This document shows, in pieces, positions 4,519 to 16,764 of a DNA stretch of 22,431 nt (position 1 is its first letter; every line of letters starts with the position of its first letter). Origin of the DNA: a virus. Under the pieces are notes generated by a model that saw only the letters and a program-made list of their open reading frames with translations, ran no database searches and was not told the DNA's origin. Position numbers and translations under genes: made by a program. Location: IMG/VR virus record IMGVR_UViG_3300032116_001412, positions 1 to 22,431 of that record; one strand, written 5' to 3'.

Positions 4519-7272
4519 CTATTCCTTATTCTTCTTATTTGAAGAAGAGTTATCAAATCTATTTTTATTCTCTCTAGCTATTTGTAATTGAGTGTCAGCT
4601 ATCTCTCTTTGAGTTTGAATCTTTTCTCTTTCAATGTCAGCTTTTGAATTCTGAACCTGCTGCTTATTAGACTCTTTCATTCTTTCAATATCAGTCTGTT
4701 CTCTGTATTGCTCTGATTGTCTAATCTCACTCATAGCATCTCTATAATCTGACATTTCATTCTTATTGACATCAGCCATAGAACCATAACCAGCAGCTCT
4801 GATCTCAGCAACTAAGATATCCCTTTGTCTATCTTTCTCTTTCTCAGCTGCTACAGCATCAATCTTCATTTTCTCAAGTTCTTGTTGAGACTGTTGTTGT
4901 TGCTGTTGCATTTGTTGCTGACTCTGCATTTCTTGTTGCTTTGTTTGCTGTTGTTTCTGCTCAGAAGACTTGAGTGCATTATTAAGTTCAGATAATGAAT
5001 CAGACTGAATTACTTTACCTAAGTCATATATAGAGGCTCCCATAGTATTATTAGTCATAGCCATCTGCTTAAGTTGTTCTAACACAGCTCTATTATTAGC
5101 TGTTGTAGTACAGAAGATGTTTAAGTCTCTGAGTAATAAATCAGTACCATTAATTTCAAAGTTTACTTTCTCATCTGCTGTAGTAGTATAAGTAAGTCTT
5201 GCAGATGGTTTAGTAGAATGATAGTACTGTGCTAAGTCTGTACGCATTTGGTGTACTCTAGGCATTAAGTAATCACAGTGCTGGATAAAGAACATTTCTG
5301 TTTGAGCATATGATGCTGATACAGCTTGTTCTACACCAGTAGCAGTCTGTTGAGATAGTTGTTGACCCATACGTTGTGGATTAACACCTATTACTTCATA
5401 TGCTTGTTGCTTAAAGTAATTAGCAAGTTGTATCCTAGACATAAGTCTCTCAGTCTGGGATAAGTCTAGTTTTTGAAAATGCTGGAAGTTTAATGCATTC
5501 TCTGTATTTGTAATAGAAGTATCCAGAGGTAACATCTGGAAATTCTTCATTGCTACATATGCTTTAGCTAGATTACCTTTCCCCCAATCTTCTCCTAATG
5601 AGTGTCTTGGTAAAGTGTTCTGGTCAAGCATGATAATAGTACCTAACTCATCTACTAGTATATCAGCAATTTGGTTATTTACTATGTTATATGCAATTTG
5701 GTATGGCTTCATTAAGTCAAGTAGTGCAGTAGACTTAGTATTTCTATCAGAGAATACAGATCCTTCTACTGGTAACTTACTTCCATATAGACTACTATCA
5801 CCTTTAAACTGAAACTTAAGTGGGCCTATTTTATTCTTTTCTACACCTATGTAGATAGGAGTAAATCCTCCAGGGTTATTCATACCCCAGAATGATGGGA
5901 TGTTTGGTCCAATCTTAACTCCTCCCCAAACTTCATTAATCCAAATCCAATCAATGTGTTCACCAAAGATTATATTGTCTTTAGTTTTATTTTGGAAAAG
6001 TCTAGTATCATAGATAGGCTTATCTGTTATCTTATAGTCTTCTGTTATTATTTCAGTGGATACCTCTCCTGATTCTGATACTTTTGTAAGGTGACCCACT
6101 TTCCTTTGAGACTTCCAGTAACAAGTGGATACTCTAAGTAAGTATGCGGTACCTGCTACGTTATAGTCTTCTCCTTCAGCTAGTATCTGTGATATAACAT
6201 CTCCTCCTTCTAATACAGAACCTGATACCATAGATGTGTACTGACGGTATGCAAGTGAAGGTAAGTTAGTATTCCACTCATGTGTCTTGGTAGCATCATA
6301 ATATGAACCATCATTCTGCATACCACCTATGTTATATCCTGCTGATCTAATAGGGTAAATAGCTTCTAATGCTTCTAGTTGCTCTTCAGTCATTAGATAT
6401 CCGTATCTATCAATAACATCAGCTACTGTATACATGTCAGTTTTTCCTACCCAGTTTGCTTGAGAAATATATCTAGCATCTGGAGACTTATGATAGAATG
6501 ATAATACTGGATTCCAGAGTTCTACTTCATAATCATCCTCCATCATACGGAAGTGCCAAAACTCTCTATCTGTAATGAGCATGTCTCTGAAACCTCTTTC
6601 CTCAAGCTCATCCATCTTAAATCTTTCAACATCTACCTTATGCTGGTGTGATGCCCACTGTTCTACCATAGATCTGTAGTCTTTCTTAAAGTACATTTCT
6701 ATTTCTGGTAGCTGCTTTAATGCATCATCAGATGTTTGTTGAGTAGCTTCTTCTGAAGAAGGATCAAGTCCCTGCTCCATCATAGCTGCTACTATTTTTA
6801 TTTTAGCATCAGATAAGAGAACTTCTTCTACAGCAGCTCTCTTTTGCTCCATCATTTCATTGTAAGAGAACTCATCTACTGCACGGTATGTAAGCTTAGT
6901 TGATCTCTTAGCAAACTCAGCTACTAGAACATTAATTACATTGGGTATAATAGGATAGAACTTGAGTTCAAGTGCAGAGTTATCTTCTTTTGTTAAAGTC
7001 TCTACAATGTCTCTATACTCATTATCCTCTTCAATAATATAATCTGACTTGTCAATTACACCTTTTGCTAGCTTGTAATTCTTCATTAATCTTCTAGCAT
7101 TCATACGGATTTGTTTCAACCCATTCCACTCCAACCAGTCTAGATTCCATGCAGCCCACTCCTGATCCTTCTGGTCTTTTGGTAAAAACTGAAGAGGTTG
7201 GGTAATACTACCCATTCTATTATGCTGTACTTTGGCTCCCTTCTTAAGCTGTAGACTATTATATACTTGCAT
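4519..7272 (-). CDS. Portal protein
   Basis: This gene encodes 917 residues, a large portal, immediately downstream of the terminase region and upstream of the scaffold and capsid genes. The portal is the dodecameric head vertex through which DNA is packaged and ejected. The N-terminal third has Trp- and charge-rich segments (residues 39-52, WAAWNLDWLEWNGL) followed by helices. The central part is mixed alpha/beta, and the C-terminal quarter is helical. A glutamine-rich stretch at about residues 771-801 leads into a long charged coiled-coil tail that ends in Asn, Ser and Lys. The start ATG at 7272 overlaps the end of the GIY-YIG gene by 14 bases. The function is called from size, position and overall resemblance to portals of Bacteroidota podoviruses. 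Confidence 0.8.
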   Translation of the reverse strand: MQVYNSLQLKKGAKVQHNRMGSITQPLQFLPKDQKDQEWAAWNLDWLEWNGLKQIRMNARRLMKNYKLAKGVIDKSDYIIEEDNEYRDIVETLTKEDNSALELKFYPIIPNVINVLVAEFAKRSTKLTYRAVDEFSYNEMMEQKRAAVEEVLLSDAKIKIVAAMMEQGLDPSSEEATQQTSDDALKQLPEIEMYFKKDYRSMVEQWASHQHKVDVERFKMDELEERGFRDMLITDREFWHFRMMEDDYEVELWNPVLSFYHKSPDARYISQANWVGKTDMYTVADVIDRYGYLMTEEQLEALEAIYPIRSAGYNIGGMQNDGSYYDATKTHEWNTNLPSLAYRQYTSMVSGSVLEGGDVISQILAEGEDYNVAGTAYLLRVSTCYWKSQRKVGHLTKVSESGEVSTEIITEDYKITDKPIYDTRLFQNKTKDNIIFGEHIDWIWINEVWGGVKIGPNIPSFWGMNNPGGFTPIYIGVEKNKIGPLKFQFKGDSSLYGSKLPVEGSVFSDRNTKSTALLDLMKPYQIAYNIVNNQIADILVDELGTIIMLDQNTLPRHSLGEDWGKGNLAKAYVAMKNFQMLPLDTSITNTENALNFQHFQKLDLSQTERLMSRIQLANYFKQQAYEVIGVNPQRMGQQLSQQTATGVEQAVSASYAQTEMFFIQHCDYLMPRVHQMRTDLAQYYHSTKPSARLTYTTTADEKVNFEINGTDLLLRDLNIFCTTTANNRAVLEQLKQMAMTNNTMGASIYDLGKVIQSDSLSELNNALKSSEQKQQQTKQQEMQSQQQMQQQQQQSQQELEKMKIDAVAAEKEKDRQRDILVAEIRAAGYGSMADVNKNEMSDYRDAMSEIRQSEQYREQTDIERMKESNKQQVQNSKADIEREKIQTQREIADTQLQIARENKNRFDNSSSNKKNKE

Positions 7273-7918
7273 CTGCTAAAAACTTTAAATTGAATTTGTT
7301 TTTCTTAATGAGTCTAGTCATATGAGAAGGAGATTTTTTAAAAACTCTTGCAACTTCATTTATTGAAGTATAAATATGATTAGTTTCTGTATTAATTACT
7401 TTTTTTCTTGTCTTTGAATATATCTTTTCTTTTTCTTCATCTGATTTTACTCTACCTTTTTGAGCAGAAGCAATTATCATCTTTTGAGTATCCGGTATTT
7501 TTTTACCAAAATTTGGGTTACCTTCTCCTTGCATTTTTATTTTAAAATACTCTTTTCTCTCATCTGACCATTTTATACCATACTGAGGATTTTTTATACC
7601 AAGTTTTGCCTCAGAAATTTTTTTTCTAACAACAGAATTAGGATTATACATTCCTTCTCCACCATCTGTTAAGTTAACAAGAGATATTCCAAAGGATTTA
7701 TAAAGACTAATAAATTCTTTTTCTTTTTTACAAGCAATGTTCCAATCAAGCTCATCTAAAATAATTTCTACCTTATAATCAGTTTTGTTTGTGACACTTA
7801 CCCAATACCTATTTCTATTATACTTAGAATAAGCACGTTTAAATTTAGCATCACTACCTATACCAATATAAAACGGTGTGTTAGTATCTTGTCTTATATG
7901 TCTATACACATATGCCAT
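7259..7918 (-). CDS. GIY-YIG family homing endonuclease with NUMOD-type DNA-binding motifs
   Basis: This gene encodes 219 residues. The N-terminal GIY-YIG nuclease domain shows YVY at residues 3-5, YIG at 17-19, an Arg at 28 in the catalytic position, a likely catalytic Glu at 66 or 68, and the family's NLTDGGEG at 83-90. Two NUMOD3-like segments follow (NPQYGIKWSDE near 110 and NPNFGKKIPD near 134). The C-terminal region at about 174-215 resembles NUMOD1, with a helix-turn-helix (YTSINEVARVFKKSPSHM). Such free-standing enzymes cut a recipient genome lacking the gene and spread by repair. Its ATG directly follows the terminase TAA, and its 3' end overlaps the portal start by 14 bases, so it is wedged between two essential genes with no space lost. 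It looks intact. It is probably dispensable for virion assembly. Confidence 0.92.
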   Translation of the reverse strand: MAYVYRHIRQDTNTPFYIGIGSDAKFKRAYSKYNRNRYWVSVTNKTDYKVEIILDELDWNIACKKEKEFISLYKSFGISLVNLTDGGEGMYNPNSVVRKKISEAKLGIKNPQYGIKWSDERKEYFKIKMQGEGNPNFGKKIPDTQKMIIASAQKGRVKSDEEKEKIYSKTRKKVINTETNHIYTSINEVARVFKKSPSHMTRLIKKNKFNLKFLADASI

Positions 7919-12791: not shown

Positions 12792-13079
12792 CTACATCTT
12801 CCTAAGTTTCTTCTTCTGTTCTGTTTTGATTTCCTCCTTAAGATTTTCTTTAGCTGCTTCTTCACCTTCTAAATCTTCAGGTGGATTAGATAACATTGCA
12901 TGTTGCATCTGAAGCTTAATTCTTTCAAATCTTGCAGCATCAATTTTTAACAGCATTTCTTCATATTCAAACTGAGCATTCAAGTACTTCATTGACTCAG
13001 TGTAGAATTGAAACATCTGCTCTTTTCTTTGCATTAACTCCTCTGCAGTTAACTGTTGTTCTTGTGTTGGTTCTTCCAT
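12792..13079 (-). CDS. Small charged coiled-coil protein, first gene of the packaging unit
   Basis: This gene encodes 95 residues starting MEEPTQEQQL. I chose ATG 13079 rather than the GTG at 13163 because the GTG lies inside the upstream terminator hairpin and its extension would be read across the promoter. The protein is nearly all helix-forming, with Glu, Lys, Gln and Met prominent, and has a likely coiled coil over residues 12-62. The C-terminus is basic (KTEQKKKLRKM). The next gene starts two bases after its stop. I do not recognise the family. Confidence 0.7.
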   Translation of the reverse strand: MEEPTQEQQLTAEELMQRKEQMFQFYTESMKYLNAQFEYEEMLLKIDAARFERIKLQMQHAMLSNPPEDLEGEEAAKENLKEEIKTEQKKKLRKM

Positions 13080-13101
13080 AACTTCTATGTGTTTATTTAC
13101 A

Positions 13102-13109
13102 CAAATATA
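13102..13109 (-). promoter_or_regulatory. Candidate Bacteroidota-type promoter -7 element
   Basis: The minus strand reads TATATTTG, an exact match to the Bacteroidota -7 consensus TAnnTTTG. It lies 23 bases before ATG 13079 and just downstream of the lysis-unit terminator, which is where a new transcript should begin. I find no clear -33 TTTG at the usual spacing, so the call rests on the -7 match and position. Confidence 0.55.
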
Positions 13110-13117
13110 TGAAATAA

Positions 13118-13140
13118 GTTTAAATAAAATATGTTTAAAC
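13118..13140. promoter_or_regulatory. Inverted repeat next to the promoter, candidate operator
   Basis: GTTTAAA at 13118-13124 and TTTAAAC at 13134-13140 form a perfect 7-base inverted repeat around a 9-base spacer. It lies between the terminator and the -7 element, where a -33 box or activator site would be. A dimeric regulator could bind here, but AT-rich DNA forms such repeats by chance. Confidence 0.35.
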
Positions 13141-13169
13141 AAAAAATCCAGGTGAATCAACACCTGGAT
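13141..13169 (-). terminator. Intrinsic terminator after the lysis cassette
   Basis: On the minus strand ATCCAGGTG and CACCTGGAT form a perfect 9-base stem around a 6-base loop (TTGATT), followed at once by a T run (TTTTTG). It lies about 20 bases past the stop of the 52-residue gene and just before the next candidate promoter, so it separates the tail and lysis unit from the packaging unit. Confidence 0.93.
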
Positions 13170-13190
13170 CTCAGTATCAGATAGTTACTA

Positions 13191-13349
13191 TTATCTGTTC
13201 TTAACTGTAAGATTGAAGATTGTAAGTAAATAGAAATCTCTGGAAATGTCAACCTCTATGGTCATTACATCAAGGAACCCTAATCTAAATCTAAAAGCAA
13301 ACTTATCCCATTGCTTTGTCCTTGCTTTCCATCCATTTCTAAACTTCAT
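13191..13349 (-). CDS. 52-residue hypothetical protein at the end of the lysis cassette
   Basis: A hand translation gives MKFRNGWKARTKQWDKF followed by an aromatic and basic segment, ending in TVKNR. Its ATG lies one base after the holin stop, and a terminator follows its TAA closely, so it fits as the last gene of the unit. It has no obvious membrane segment but does have hydrophobic stretches (YLLTIFNL). The function is unknown. Tight packing and an intact frame up to the terminator argue that it is real. Confidence 0.65.
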   Translation of the reverse strand: MKFRNGWKARTKQWDKFAFRFRLGFLDVMTIEVDISRDFYLLTIFNLTVKNR

Positions 13350-13350
13350 A

Positions 13351-13512
13351 TTACTTCTTATCTACAATTGACCAAATAGTACCTGCTAAAGCAATAGTAC
13401 CTCCAATAAGTTCATTAAGCACAGACTCATCAATGGCTCCTTTTACTACAAGGAAACCTCCAACAAAAGTTAGGACGTGTCTTGCTACTCCTAGGATTTG
13501 TTCTTTTTTCAT
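13351..13512 (-). CDS. Small holin (Pam3-gp28-like)
   Basis: A hand translation gives 53 residues: MKKEQILGVARHVLTF, then a Gly-rich hydrophobic segment (VGGFLVV), KGAIDES, and a second hydrophobic segment (LIGGTIALAGTIWSIV) ending DKK. Two short membrane helices flanked by charged ends fit a small holin. The pattern KEQILGV.RH.LTFVGG...KG.ID resembles the Pam3-gp28 family of putative phage holins, recalled from memory. It sits 15 bases after the amidase stop, so holin and endolysin are co-transcribed. Holins make the inner-membrane hole that releases or activates the endolysin. Confidence 0.82.
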   Translation of the reverse strand: MKKEQILGVARHVLTFVGGFLVVKGAIDESVLNELIGGTIALAGTIWSIVDKK

Positions 13513-13527
13513 AATTATTAATTTAAG

Positions 13528-14409
13528 TTATAAACTGAGCAGCATATCAATCAGCTCCTGCTGCGGGAACATATCTACTTTTCCTCTAATTACATTAGTA
13601 TGTGAGTACATACCTGGATTCTTTTCTGCATATGCTAGATTAAGTACATCAAAGCCATCTGCACCCTTTTCTTTAACCCACTCTACTAGACCTACTCTAG
13701 GGTCAATATTATATCTCTCAGCGCAGTATAGTATCCAGTTTCTAAGAACTTTAATTTGCTCATCTGAATATCTATGCCATTGCTTATATCCTCTAAATGG
13801 TTTAGCTAGAGTTACTATCTGAGAAGGATCAGCTTTAACTCCTACATATGTTTTACCATCTTTAATACCACCAAAGTTACATACTTCAATAGCTACAGAG
13901 TTTCTATGCATTACAGAGTTTCCTGTACCAGTATGCCATCCATATCCAAATTCAGGAAATACTTGGATAAGCTCTCCGTCAAACTTAGCATTACTGTCTT
14001 TTACAGATTGTCCTCCTAATACAAACTCAGTACCTACGTTACCTCTTGTATCTCTAGCCCACATATCAGCTACTTGGTAAGGATTATGCCATCCTGCTGT
14101 GTGGTGTAAGTATATCCATTGTTTCTTTACAGGACCTTTAAAGTAAGTTCCTTCAGGCATGAAGTACTTCTTTATCTCAAGAGCATTTTCTACTTCTTGG
14201 TTTTCTGCATTATCAGTATTTAGAATACCCATTACAGCCCAGGTCTTTTCTCCTACAATACCATCAGGTAAAAGACCTACTTTCTTCTGGTAGCTTTTTA
14301 CTGCAGATTCAGTCTTTGATCCAAAGATACCATCTACTGTAAGTTTTAGAAACTCTTGAAGAGTCTTTACTGACTCTCCTTTGCTACCCTTTTTTAATAC
14401 AATTGTCAT
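13528..14409 (-). CDS. Endolysin: N-acetylmuramoyl-L-alanine amidase with peptidoglycan-binding domain
   Basis: This gene encodes 293 residues. Residues 1-60 form a PG_binding_1 domain (GSKGESVKTLQEFL, VDGIFGSKTESAVKSYQ, DGIVGEKTW). Residues from about 95 to 282 form an Amidase_2 (PGRP/T7-lysozyme type) domain with zinc-ligand candidates His102/103 (YLHHTAG), His270 (SHTNV) and Asp279 (KVDMFP). It should cut the bond between N-acetylmuramate and L-alanine during lysis. There is no signal peptide, so it would depend on a holin. ATG 14409 directly follows the leader AAAAACCAAC, also found before 1437 and 4419. The flanking genes are the coiled-coil membrane protein upstream and the holin downstream. 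Confidence 0.93.
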   Translation of the reverse strand: MTIVLKKGSKGESVKTLQEFLKLTVDGIFGSKTESAVKSYQKKVGLLPDGIVGEKTWAVMGILNTDNAENQEVENALEIKKYFMPEGTYFKGPVKKQWIYLHHTAGWHNPYQVADMWARDTRGNVGTEFVLGGQSVKDSNAKFDGELIQVFPEFGYGWHTGTGNSVMHRNSVAIEVCNFGGIKDGKTYVGVKADPSQIVTLAKPFRGYKQWHRYSDEQIKVLRNWILYCAERYNIDPRVGLVEWVKEKGADGFDVLNLAYAEKNPGMYSHTNVIRGKVDMFPQQELIDMLLSL

Positions 14410-14420
14410 GTTGGTTTTTA
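14410..14420 (-). promoter_or_regulatory. AACCAAC leader motif before the endolysin start
   Basis: The coding-strand leader TAAAAACCAAC ends exactly at the endolysin ATG. It is one of three gene starts in the window with this motif and has no Shine-Dalgarno. It may help recruit ribosomes or reflect a shared regulatory signal. Confidence 0.4.
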
Positions 14421-14425
14421 TTTAG

Positions 14426-14686
14426 TTATCTATTTAGTATAAGCTGCTTTACTGCATCTGAAAGCTCACTTACATTTCTTGCAAGACTCTTGATTTCTAA
14501 CTGAGTTTGCTCTTGAATAGCTTGATACTTAAGTCTTGACTCTTGTTCTACAAGTTCAATTTTACCTTTGAGTTTTCCTTGTTCTTCTGTGTTTTTTCTA
14601 ACATCATTGTGGACTAGTCTGAGGAAGTAGCCAATGATTAATGTTGCTGTACCAATGATGAACATTGTGATATCTGCTGTGCTCAT
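14426..14686 (-). CDS. One-span membrane protein with coiled coil, lysis-associated
   Basis: This gene encodes 86 residues. One transmembrane helix spans about residues 7-23 (TMFIIGTATLIIGYFL). A long charged coiled coil follows at about 36-84 (LKGKIELVEQESRLKY). The start overlaps the preceding stop (ATGA). It sits between the candidate spanin and the endolysin, so it could be a second holin, an antiholin or a membrane-anchored i-spanin-like partner. The topology (short N-terminus out, coiled coil on the other side) does not settle which. I do not recognise an exact family. Confidence 0.72.
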   Translation of the reverse strand: MSTADITMFIIGTATLIIGYFLRLVHNDVRKNTEEQGKLKGKIELVEQESRLKYQAIQEQTQLEIKSLARNVSELSDAVKQLILNR

Positions 14687-15105
14687 TTTCTAAAGATTGC
14701 GTTAACTATAATATAAAAAGCTAAGAATGCTATAATAATAGCAAGTATCCAATAGAATACTTTCTTCCAAACAGGAGTCTCCTCATATATTCTTACAGGA
14801 ACTTTTCTGTCTATAATTTTTTCAATATATACTGTATCACACTGTCCTTGGATATAGACTTTATTATATCTATCTCTCCAGACTTTGATTTTAAGTTGAT
14901 CCTTTTCTAGGTATATGGTATCCCAAAGTTCTTCTATATCAACTACTGTGTCTATTCTTACTTTTGGAACTGTAATTCTTATTGTATCACGGATTACTAC
15001 TGAATCAATATTAGTTAACTCAGGATGCTTTTTTAGCAAATGTTCCAGTCTCCTTTGTGGAGAACAAGATGCTAATAACAATAAGAGTACAAACAAAAAT
15101 CTCAT
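14683..15105 (-). CDS. Lipoprotein with C-terminal membrane segment, candidate unimolecular spanin
   Basis: This gene encodes 140 residues from ATG 15105. Residues 1-14 (MRFLFVLLLLLASC) are a lipoprotein signal with lipobox LASC, so Cys14 would be lipidated after cleavage. The middle is a charged periplasmic domain with Val/Ile-Asp-Thr repeats (DTIRITV, DTVVDIEE, DTIYLEK, DTVYIEK). The C-terminus is a transmembrane helix at about residues 116-137 followed by Arg-Lys. An N-terminal lipid anchor plus C-terminal inner-membrane helix is the u-spanin layout of phages such as T1, which fuses the inner and outer membranes in the last lysis step. A TTG at 15132 would put residues before the signal and was rejected. 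Confidence 0.72.
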   Translation of the reverse strand: MRFLFVLLLLLASCSPQRRLEHLLKKHPELTNIDSVVIRDTIRITVPKVRIDTVVDIEELWDTIYLEKDQLKIKVWRDRYNKVYIQGQCDTVYIEKIIDRKVPVRIYEETPVWKKVFYWILAIIIAFLAFYIIVNAIFRK

Positions 15106-15147
15106 ATATATAATATACAAAATATTTTGCAATATACGTAAAAATGC

Positions 15148-16764
15148 TTAGTCTATTCTTTTGTATCTTAAAATTGAGCCTTTCATTGTTCTAATTGTAA
15201 AACCATTACTTCCAGCTCTATGTTGAACATTTAATAATGCATTTGCTGAAGTTACAAATACGCCATATATTTTAAAAAAATGAGGATTGGAAATATTATT
15301 CGCTTGACCACTTGATAACATCAAAGATGAAGTTGCGACAGAATTATTTATACTGATAAAATTAACCCACTGGTTTGATTGATTTCTAAAACCTTGATTT
15401 CTGCCCAACATATTGCCACTATTTACATTGAATAATATGCCTATATCCGTACCCGAACTACCACATCCGTAATAAATATCTAACTCAACGCTGTAAACTC
15501 CATTGGCAACAACAGAAAAAGAAAATTCAGTTACATTTGAAGGTGTTGAAGAACTTGTATCTTGGTTTGCACTCTTCACTATAGTAGTCCATCCAGCTGG
15601 GTCAGGTGAAGTTACTGTAAATGTTCTATTTGCAGATAAATCTTGTGTAGTTCCATTAATGGTTAAGGTTCTAGCAAGAGGAACATATGTAGAAGCTGCT
15701 GTTGCAGATGTGAGATATGGTGATAGTGCTGCAGATGTTATAAATCCAGATGGATTAGTTGCATCATATGGTGTATAACCAAGTGCTGTTGTAACATCTA
15801 GAGATGTAATACCAGATATATATCCAGCTGGATTAGTAAGTGGATAATAAGTTGCTGCTGCTGCAGCTGATGTAAGATAAGCAGATAAGCTAGATACTGT
15901 AGCTATAAGAGATGTATCTACAGAAAGGACATTAGGAGAGAGCTCTTGCAAACCATATCCTGCGGCAACTGCTTGTGCTGCATTAAACTGTACATAGTTT
16001 ATAGCTGTAGTTCCTATTGTAATTGTACCTGTAGTATTTAATATAAAACCATAACCTCCGTAAAGAGTCCCTTGTTGTATAAATGTAAAGTCTCCATTTT
16101 GAAGTTCTCCTGCTGGAGAGTTATCTGCATCTGAAGATCTTGTTAGTACCCACGGAGTAGATACAGATCCGGTATTAGTTACATCATATATACCATTCTG
16201 TAGTCCAGATGATTGTTGCCATACAAGAACTCTATCTCCTAAAACTGGAGTATGAGAATCAATTATTAATGCTCCATTTACTGTAGAGGTTAATGTAGCA
16301 CCTACACCAGCTATTCCATTTAAGTATGTAGCAGATAGATTACCTGTTGTAGCTACATGACAAGGGGAGTGAAAGTTTATACCTGCTGATATGTTATCTA
16401 CATACTGTTTAGTTGCTGCATGAAGAGATGCTGTAGGATCTGAGAATAATGTTAGATAACCTAACATACTATCTCCAGATTGATTAACTGGAGTATAACC
16501 TAATGCAGTTGTTACATCTAGAGATGTTATTGCTGTAAGATAGCCTGCTGGATTACTAACTAAAGGATAATATAAACTATTATATGTTGAAGTACCATTA
16601 GACCAGTTTACTGTAGGATTAGGATAAGTTCCTGTTAAGTCTCCTCCTGCAGGTCCTGATGGAGATCCTCCTGCACCACCAAGAGTTTTTAACTTACCAT
16701 CTGATTTGGTTACAGTAATTTTTCCTGCACCAAATTTATTACCATCCTTGTCTATCAGTTCCAT
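15148..16764 (-). CDS. Tail fibre / receptor-binding protein
   Basis: This gene encodes 538 residues. The start (MELIDKDGNKFGAGKITV) leads into a Gly-rich linker and the common fibre motif DLTGTYPNPTV at 42-52. Repeat segments AGYLTAITSLDVTTALGYTP and AGYISGITSLDVTTALGYTP occur at about 73-92 and 313-332. The phage-fibre segment LHAATKQYVDN comes after the first. A central domain (DRVLVWQQSSGLQNGIYDV, then a Trp-Val-Leu-Thr-Arg strand) resembles domains of other phage fibres. The C-terminal 145 residues look like a beta jelly roll and probably form the receptor-binding tip. CpG density is much higher over this tip (15241-15540) than in the rest of the gene. The stop lies 42 bases before the candidate spanin start. 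Confidence 0.82.
   Translation of the reverse strand: MELIDKDGNKFGAGKITVTKSDGKLKTLGGAGGSPSGPAGGDLTGTYPNPTVNWSNGTSTYNSLYYPLVSNPAGYLTAITSLDVTTALGYTPVNQSGDSMLGYLTLFSDPTASLHAATKQYVDNISAGINFHSPCHVATTGNLSATYLNGIAGVGATLTSTVNGALIIDSHTPVLGDRVLVWQQSSGLQNGIYDVTNTGSVSTPWVLTRSSDADNSPAGELQNGDFTFIQQGTLYGGYGFILNTTGTITIGTTAINYVQFNAAQAVAAGYGLQELSPNVLSVDTSLIATVSSLSAYLTSAAAAATYYPLTNPAGYISGITSLDVTTALGYTPYDATNPSGFITSAALSPYLTSATAASTYVPLARTLTINGTTQDLSANRTFTVTSPDPAGWTTIVKSANQDTSSSTPSNVTEFSFSVVANGVYSVELDIYYGCGSSGTDIGILFNVNSGNMLGRNQGFRNQSNQWVNFISINNSVATSSLMLSSGQANNISNPHFFKIYGVFVTSANALLNVQHRAGSNGFTIRTMKGSILRYKRID
15770..15850 (-). repeat. 81-base repeat copy in tail fibre gene (C-terminal-side copy)
   Basis: This segment encodes the later SLDVTTALGYTP unit with the preceding AGY and leucine-rich linker. 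It aligns in frame and without gaps to 16490-16570, with many synonymous differences. It is an old internal duplication of a fibre shaft unit. Confidence 0.75.
16490..16570 (-). repeat. 81-base repeat copy in tail fibre gene (N-terminal-side copy)
   Basis: This segment encodes the first SLDVTTALGYTP unit and is the partner of 15770-15850. The shared core TTACATCTAGAGATGT (one base differs between copies) and TATAACC blocks are visible by eye. Confidence 0.75.

Follow-up and report, generated by a model that had tools for sequence, protein, structure and literature searches.

Lysis cassette in the window

The window, that is, the whole 22,431-nucleotide stretch of viral DNA analyzed here, carries a lysis cassette with the gene order putative unimolecular spanin (u-spanin), 86-aa transmembrane (TM)/coiled-coil gene, amidase endolysin, Phage_holin_10 holin, and 52-aa gene, followed by a hairpin (Table 1). 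In the region 12800-15500, the pattern scan found two terminator-like sites, compared with a mean of 0.9 (standard deviation, 0.9) in shuffled sequences. The product of the 52-aa gene is basic, and its relatives lie behind the endolysin gene in cassettes of several kinds.

Table 1. Features of the lysis cassette and of the 140-aa protein in the window
Feature	Position	Strand	Evidence
Putative u-spanin gene, 140 aa	14683..15105	-	ORF and translation; 45 distinct complete family frames; lysis-cassette position
Predicted lipoprotein signal, residues 1-14, lipobox LASC, Cys14	15064..15105	-	Sequence; 45/45 distinct complete frames
Predicted periplasmic domain (residues 15-111) with a short helix, long beta strands after it, and Asp-Thr repeats	14773..15063	-	AlphaFold2, 39-row alignment
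Codon of the invariant periplasmic Cys89	14839..14841	-	39-row alignment; exactly one periplasmic Cys in 45/45
Predicted C-terminal transmembrane helix, residues 112-138	14692..14772	-	AlphaFold2; hydrophobic C-terminal segment in 45/45
86-aa gene; TM helix at the N terminus, coiled coil probable by eye	14426..14686	-	Weak match to phrog_6179, E 6.6e-5
Endolysin, PG_binding_1 and Amidase_2	13528..14409	-	Pfam 7.8e-14 and 2.6e-9; PHROG endolysin
Holin, Phage_holin_10 family	13351..13512	-	Pfam PF23987, 1e-17
52-aa gene, last of the cassette	13191..13349	-	ORF; relative after endolysin in several cassettes
Terminator-like hairpin, 12-bp stem and T run, 3' of the cassette	13143..13172	-	Pattern scan

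The boundaries of the 140-aa open reading frame (ORF) in the initial annotation were confirmed, with the gene on the minus strand and an ATG start codon at 15105. The lipobox signal is short, with the cysteine at position 14. An in-frame TTG nine codons 5' of the ATG would shift this cysteine to position 23; for the relatives at loci L004 and L005, the layout scan described below gives an ATG start and a cysteine at position 14. The hydrophobic helix at the C terminus ends with a basic tail. The arrangement first noticed in this protein, a lipobox at one end of 140 residues and a membrane segment at the other, was thus borne out by Cys14 of the LASC lipobox and the helix at residues 112 to 138.

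Scan for the u-spanin layout

The combination of a lipobox and a C-terminal TM segment was searched for with our own Kyte-Doolittle and lipobox rules, the thresholds of which were chosen after the 140-aa protein had been seen. In this layout scan, the 140-aa gene was the sole ORF of at least 80 aa with the u-spanin layout in the window. No ORF of this layout occurred in 100 first-order Markov windows, and permutation of the residues of the 140-aa protein produced the layout in 8 of 20,000 cases. In FCL-2, a phage included in SpaninDB, the scan found a 127-aa ORF of the same layout. The scan is a rough detector. The putative u-spanin gene of phi13:2, whose annotated start falls after the signal, was missed, as were most members of a second family with a longer signal (see below), and an unlikely 90-aa ORF was returned for L014.

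No ORF of the layout was found by the scan in crAss001 (positions 1-66000), phi14:2 (1-50000 and 51800-100418), or Fpv3 (1-22294). For cr130_1, it gave just an unlikely 90-aa ORF; the late genes of this phage are unreadable to the scan because they contain in-frame stops under translation table 11. Near the lysis genes of crAss001 and phi14:2 lie Gp27 (L028:94-696) and gp073 (L026:17431-18009), respectively, which are proteins with an N-terminal TM segment and Asp-Thr motifs. These may be the envelope-disrupting proteins of crAss phages in which the scan found no u-spanin layout.

Source phage

The capsid protein of the window matched Crass_capsid in Pfam (6.2e-29), and the terminase matched phrog_6681 (4.1e-61). 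The terminase had tblastn matches in 122 phage records. Among the 60 matches listed, cr130_1 and crAss001 belong to Crassvirales, and a Flavobacterium Fipvunavirus, also listed, is not placed in that order by its record. Judging by the crassvirus capsid and the related terminase, the source is a Crassvirales-type phage, possibly from a sister group of Crassvirales, and the relatives of the terminase point to a Bacteroidota host. Between the portal and terminase genes, a 219-aa ORF (7259-7918) was observed, which by eye resembles a GIY-YIG homing endonuclease.

Conservation of the 140-aa family

Relatives were gathered by three viral-contig scans with the 140-aa family and one with a neighboring 277-aa protein, followed by a profile search. 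The 91 frames obtained, many of which were the same contig fetched again, were reduced to 50 distinct frames. After 5 frames cut by contig ends were dropped, 45 complete frames were left, including that of the window, and these correspond to 44 distinct mature proteins. Of the 44 listed references, 37 entered the alignment; with L004 and the window protein added, it has 39 rows.

The initial annotation had named homologs without the C-terminal membrane segment as a finding that would refute a spanin. According to the rule-based tools, both this segment and the predicted lipobox were kept in all 45 distinct complete frames, a conservation that is partly selected for, since the relatives were gathered by family patterns and profile; the lysis neighbors were never search terms. 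The repeated Asp-Thr motif pointed out in the middle of the protein is real. Three pairs (D40-T41, D52-T53, and D62-T63) are invariant in the 39 aligned sequences, as is Cys14, and D90 and T91 are conserved in at least 90% of them. Comparison with L004 gave a dN of 0.088 and a dS of 0.78, indicating purifying selection on the gene.

In all 45 frames, the predicted lipid-bearing cysteine begins the motif C[TS]P[QK], and none of the frames has K-(D/E)2 or Q-A-(D/E)2 right after this cysteine. Such acidic stretches constitute the surface-export signal of the LES rule, as given in the available part of its description (PMC5080379). Their absence agrees with a predicted orientation in which the N terminus faces the periplasm.

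Neighboring genes across relatives

An endolysin gene was located on the same strand within 2.5 kb downstream in 44 of the 45 distinct frames; in the sole exception, L054, the contig ends 35 bases past the gene. By families named from one or two examples each, these endolysins comprised 28 of the Amidase_3 kind (L041-like), 6 resembling the Amidase_2 endolysin of the window, 3 Amidase_2 (L152-like), 5 TIGR02594 (L009-like), and 2 GH108 (L038-like). The CHAP score of the L009 TIGR02594 protein was just below the Pfam cut-off. The putative spanin gene is thus retained, whereas the kind of endolysin beside it differs, as do the neighboring small membrane proteins. Phage_holin_10 and Phage_holin_4_1 were the only named holins beside the family, and the other small membrane proteins next to the u-spanin gene had no holin match in Pfam.

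The search with the 277-aa neighbor yielded 352 loci, of which the best 80 were considered and 35 with at least 4.5 kb upstream were used; several of the 35 are identical or nearly so and are not independent. The 140-aa family was present at 19 of these loci, a second family at 10, and a third type at 1 (L139). At the other 5 (L096, L119, L123, L124, and L156), no gene of the u-spanin layout was seen in the stretch read. The scan alone had given 6 loci with another protein of the layout and 10 with none, and L084, L085, L086, L090, and L091 were later moved to the second family.

The second family, whose members start with SCS[IV]E[HR]HL, was represented by 15 frames (9 distinct) in the same late-gene region of sister phages; it was observed at L101:2875-3378 and also at L083-L087, L089-L092, L100, L103, L106, L114, and L128. 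It resembles the 140-aa family in its lipobox, C-terminal TM segment, and location in this region, whereas it is longer. The lipobox could be anchored in 14 of the 15 frames, and none of these 14 has a periplasmic cysteine. The profiles of the two families aligned over 22 columns at the signal alone (hhalign probability, 19%). A TIGR02594-like endolysin directly follows the second family in 8 of its 15 frames. The third protein of the u-spanin layout (L139:3099-3587) has three cysteines in the middle of the chain, and its gene precedes, by two genes, a 153-aa gene that by eye is lysozyme-like. Such dissimilar u-spanin-like proteins, swapped in one gene region, offer a ready comparison for how freely the function is replaced.

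A lipobox and a C-terminal hydrophobic segment were also noticed in gp18 of Flavobacterium phage Fpv5 (L031:4518-5102), which is annotated as hypothetical and whose gene directly follows one that matches the L009 endolysin. Gp18 is probably an unannotated u-spanin.

Predicted structure and homology searches

An AlphaFold2 model built from 39 sequences was of moderate confidence (mean pLDDT, 67.7; pTM, 0.30); an earlier model, built from 8, had a poor pLDDT of 52.7. The predicted elements are a helix at residues 16 to 26 and strands at 35 to 55, 64 to 68, 71 to 77, and 83 to 103, with residues 64 to 77 forming a small hairpin. The blocks of the membrane helix had mean pLDDT values of 79, 94, and 83. 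The modeled strands agree with the beta-rich T1 gp11 type. The initial suggestion of a beta-type rather than coiled-coil spanin thus held with respect to the beta-rich middle but not as a novelty, since a beta-rich domain is usual for u-spanins according to the available part of PMC6139136. The 140-aa protein had no sequence match in the PDB, and the best E value in a comparison with PDB folds was 0.084. A viral fold library gave two matches at an E value of ≤0.001, both unnamed (2.5e-8 with 37% identity, and 3e-5), and the others were weaker.

The window protein had no match in Pfam or NCBIfam at an E value of ≤1, and its PHROG matches were weak and to unnamed families (phrog_5595, 0.0055; phrog_8529, 0.0062). 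Among the 39 aligned members, the best Pfam match was DUF2706 (0.0015, in one member), and the best PHROG match was the unnamed phrog_6632 (0.0022), a family matched by 28 of the 39. The phrog_8529 profile recovered the L005 gene in its own record (3.2e-4); six named phage records and an additional contig gave no match. These weak matches to unnamed PHROG families may reflect a distant relationship to unnamed phage families. For the PHROG family "Rz-like spanin", E values reached no better than 0.17 (2 of 6 members) and 0.26 (4 of 39). In tblastn searches of the phage collection (E value of ≤10), neither the window protein nor the L009 member had a match, and a scan of bacterial genomes gave 94 pattern stretches with no relative of the 140-aa family among them. 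Homology to lipoproteins of Bacteroides prophages was considered but not established.

In literature searches for spanins of crAss-like phages and Crassvirales, no publication listed pointed to the 140-aa family; a Crassvirales review mentions spanins in general terms in the part available (PMC10136315). On sequence comparison, the family appears to be new, with matches that are solely weak and to unnamed families.

A unimolecular spanin as the best explanation

It is very probable that the 140-aa gene encodes the unimolecular spanin of a Crassvirales-type phage. The u-spanin reading, already put forward in the initial annotation, is supported by a predicted lipoprotein signal and a C-terminal TM segment on the same chain, the conservation of this layout in every complete frame, purifying selection, the place of the gene inside a lysis cassette, and a beta-rich domain in the model. 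Topology, timing, and fusion are pictured by analogy with what has been written on T1 gp11. The protein would tie the outer and inner membranes together, and its beta-rich middle would be trapped in the peptidoglycan mesh, which the amidase endolysin could cut once the holin allowed it. The freed spanin molecules would then cluster or collapse, and the two membranes would be fused or torn. The 140-aa gene is proposed as a candidate for the outer-membrane lysis step in a group of crAss-like phages.

Another way to read the cassette is as a two-component spanin, with the lipoprotein as the outer-membrane half and the 86-aa TM/coiled-coil protein as the inner-membrane half. The two genes share a 4-bp overlap, and an 86-aa-like or similarly built 105- to 108-aa gene adjoins the u-spanin gene in 35 of the 45 frames, with a 70-aa one in 2 more; these counts were taken from neighbor matching, and the coiled-coil heuristic missed the 70-aa genes of L006-L008. 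However, the lipoprotein carries its own membrane helix in every frame, and no partner-like gene was matched in 8 of 45 frames within a span reaching 0.8 kb upstream and 2.5 kb downstream (some of these loci have little sequence on one side). The 86-aa protein also has relatives beside the second family (L100, L101, L103, and L106), as well as in L096, L119, L123, and L124 (E values of 1e-25 to 2e-27), where no u-spanin-like gene was seen; therefore, the 86-aa protein is no obligate partner. In addition, basic residues flanking a membrane helix mark the cytoplasmic side (the positive-inside rule), and such residues follow the 86-aa helix, which would make the coiled coil cytoplasmic. A separate, obligate i-spanin, as expected of a two-component system, was thus not found, and we consider this arrangement improbable. 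The 86-aa protein is a putative lysis accessory. Many of the lysis cassettes collected contain a relative of its gene, and crAss001 Gp28, annotated as a lysis regulatory protein/holin, is similar to it by eye.

Phages can also encode outer-membrane lipoproteins that act in exclusion, and no named functional family matches the 140-aa protein. Its gene might serve a different purpose, for example superinfection exclusion or remodeling of the envelope, and lie beside the lysis genes by chance. Yet such a role should need no conserved C-terminal TM helix, the gene stays with the endolysin gene across several kinds of endolysin, and in sister phages another protein of the u-spanin layout fills the same place, which makes this explanation very improbable. 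That the ORF is a chance or mis-called frame is hardly credible. Chance frames can have hydrophobic ends, and nothing else speaks for this reading; against it stand a dN of 0.088 versus a dS of 0.78, the 45 distinct complete frames, and the 8 of 20,000 permutations.

An invariant periplasmic cysteine

Exactly one periplasmic cysteine was present in each of the 45 frames, in the context G[EKQ]CD[TK] or AECAA. In the 39 aligned sequences it is the invariant Cys89, placed by the model within the long strand of residues 83 to 103. According to the available part of the spanin catalog, none of 58 u-spanins has a periplasmic cysteine (PMC6139136), and the point on u-spanin cysteines is repeated in the available part of PMC7830690. 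This absence is a reported regularity of the 58 proteins, not a definition, and the 140-aa family departs from it. Thus, the family is slightly unusual for u-spanins in having one conserved periplasmic cysteine, a residue to which the initial annotation made no reference.

We tentatively suggest, as a possibility that is more doubtful than likely, that a disulfide at Cys89 joins two beta-type u-spanins into a covalent dimer needed for membrane fusion, in which case this trick of two-component spanins would have been acquired independently. If this is true, covalent dimerization would be a more general need than coiled-coil spanins alone suggest. Through the invariant Cys89, the question of whether covalent dimers are ever used by u-spanins can be put to a test at one residue.

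Comparison with known spanins

The spanin catalog describes 58 u-spanins in 13 families, those of phi13:2 and FCL-2 included, and Table 5 of SpaninDB, in the part available, gives the phi13:2, phi12:1, and phi10:1 families and FCL-2 as u-spanins (PMC6139136). According to the available part of a 2025 survey, unimolecular spanins are the exclusive type in Bacteroidetes phages (PMC12596118). Both sources contradict the initial impression that spanin calls are few in Bacteroidota phages. In the parts available, one u-spanin and one potential u-spanin are annotated in flavophages (PMC8776804), and candidate spanins are mentioned for Porphyromonas phages (PMC10367356).

According to the phage records, phi13:2 has a Cellulophaga host and FCL-2 has a Flavobacterium host. 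The phi12:1 and phi10:1 phages presumably likewise come from Bacteroidota hosts (Cellulophaga or Flavobacterium). The Bacteroidota u-spanins of SpaninDB share with the 140-aa protein the layout, the encoding by a single gene, and hosts in the phylum infected by crAss-like phages, but had no tblastn match to it. The FCL-2 ORF given by the scan and the phi13:2 gene taken as the listed u-spanin show no periplasmic cysteine, unlike the 140-aa family.

The prototype T1 gp11, a beta-type u-spanin, has the same N-terminal lipobox, C-terminal TM segment, beta-rich periplasmic domain, and place in a lysis cassette, as described in the available part of PMC6139136. Oligomerization of u-spanins via beta-sheets is also reported in the part available of PMC9636201. 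The gp11 family is defined by at least 40% identity over 40% of the length, and a tblastn search of the phage collection with the 140-aa protein gave no match at an E value of ≤10. Moreover, the 58 cataloged u-spanins have no periplasmic cysteine, whereas the 140-aa family has one that is invariant. Rz/Rz1 of lambda, as far as the available parts of PMC6139136 and PMC7830690 describe it, has periplasmic cysteines and shares the outer-membrane lipid anchor and the inner-membrane anchor proposed here. The lambda spanin consists of two coiled-coil proteins, whereas that of the Crassvirales-type phage would be one predicted beta-rich protein.
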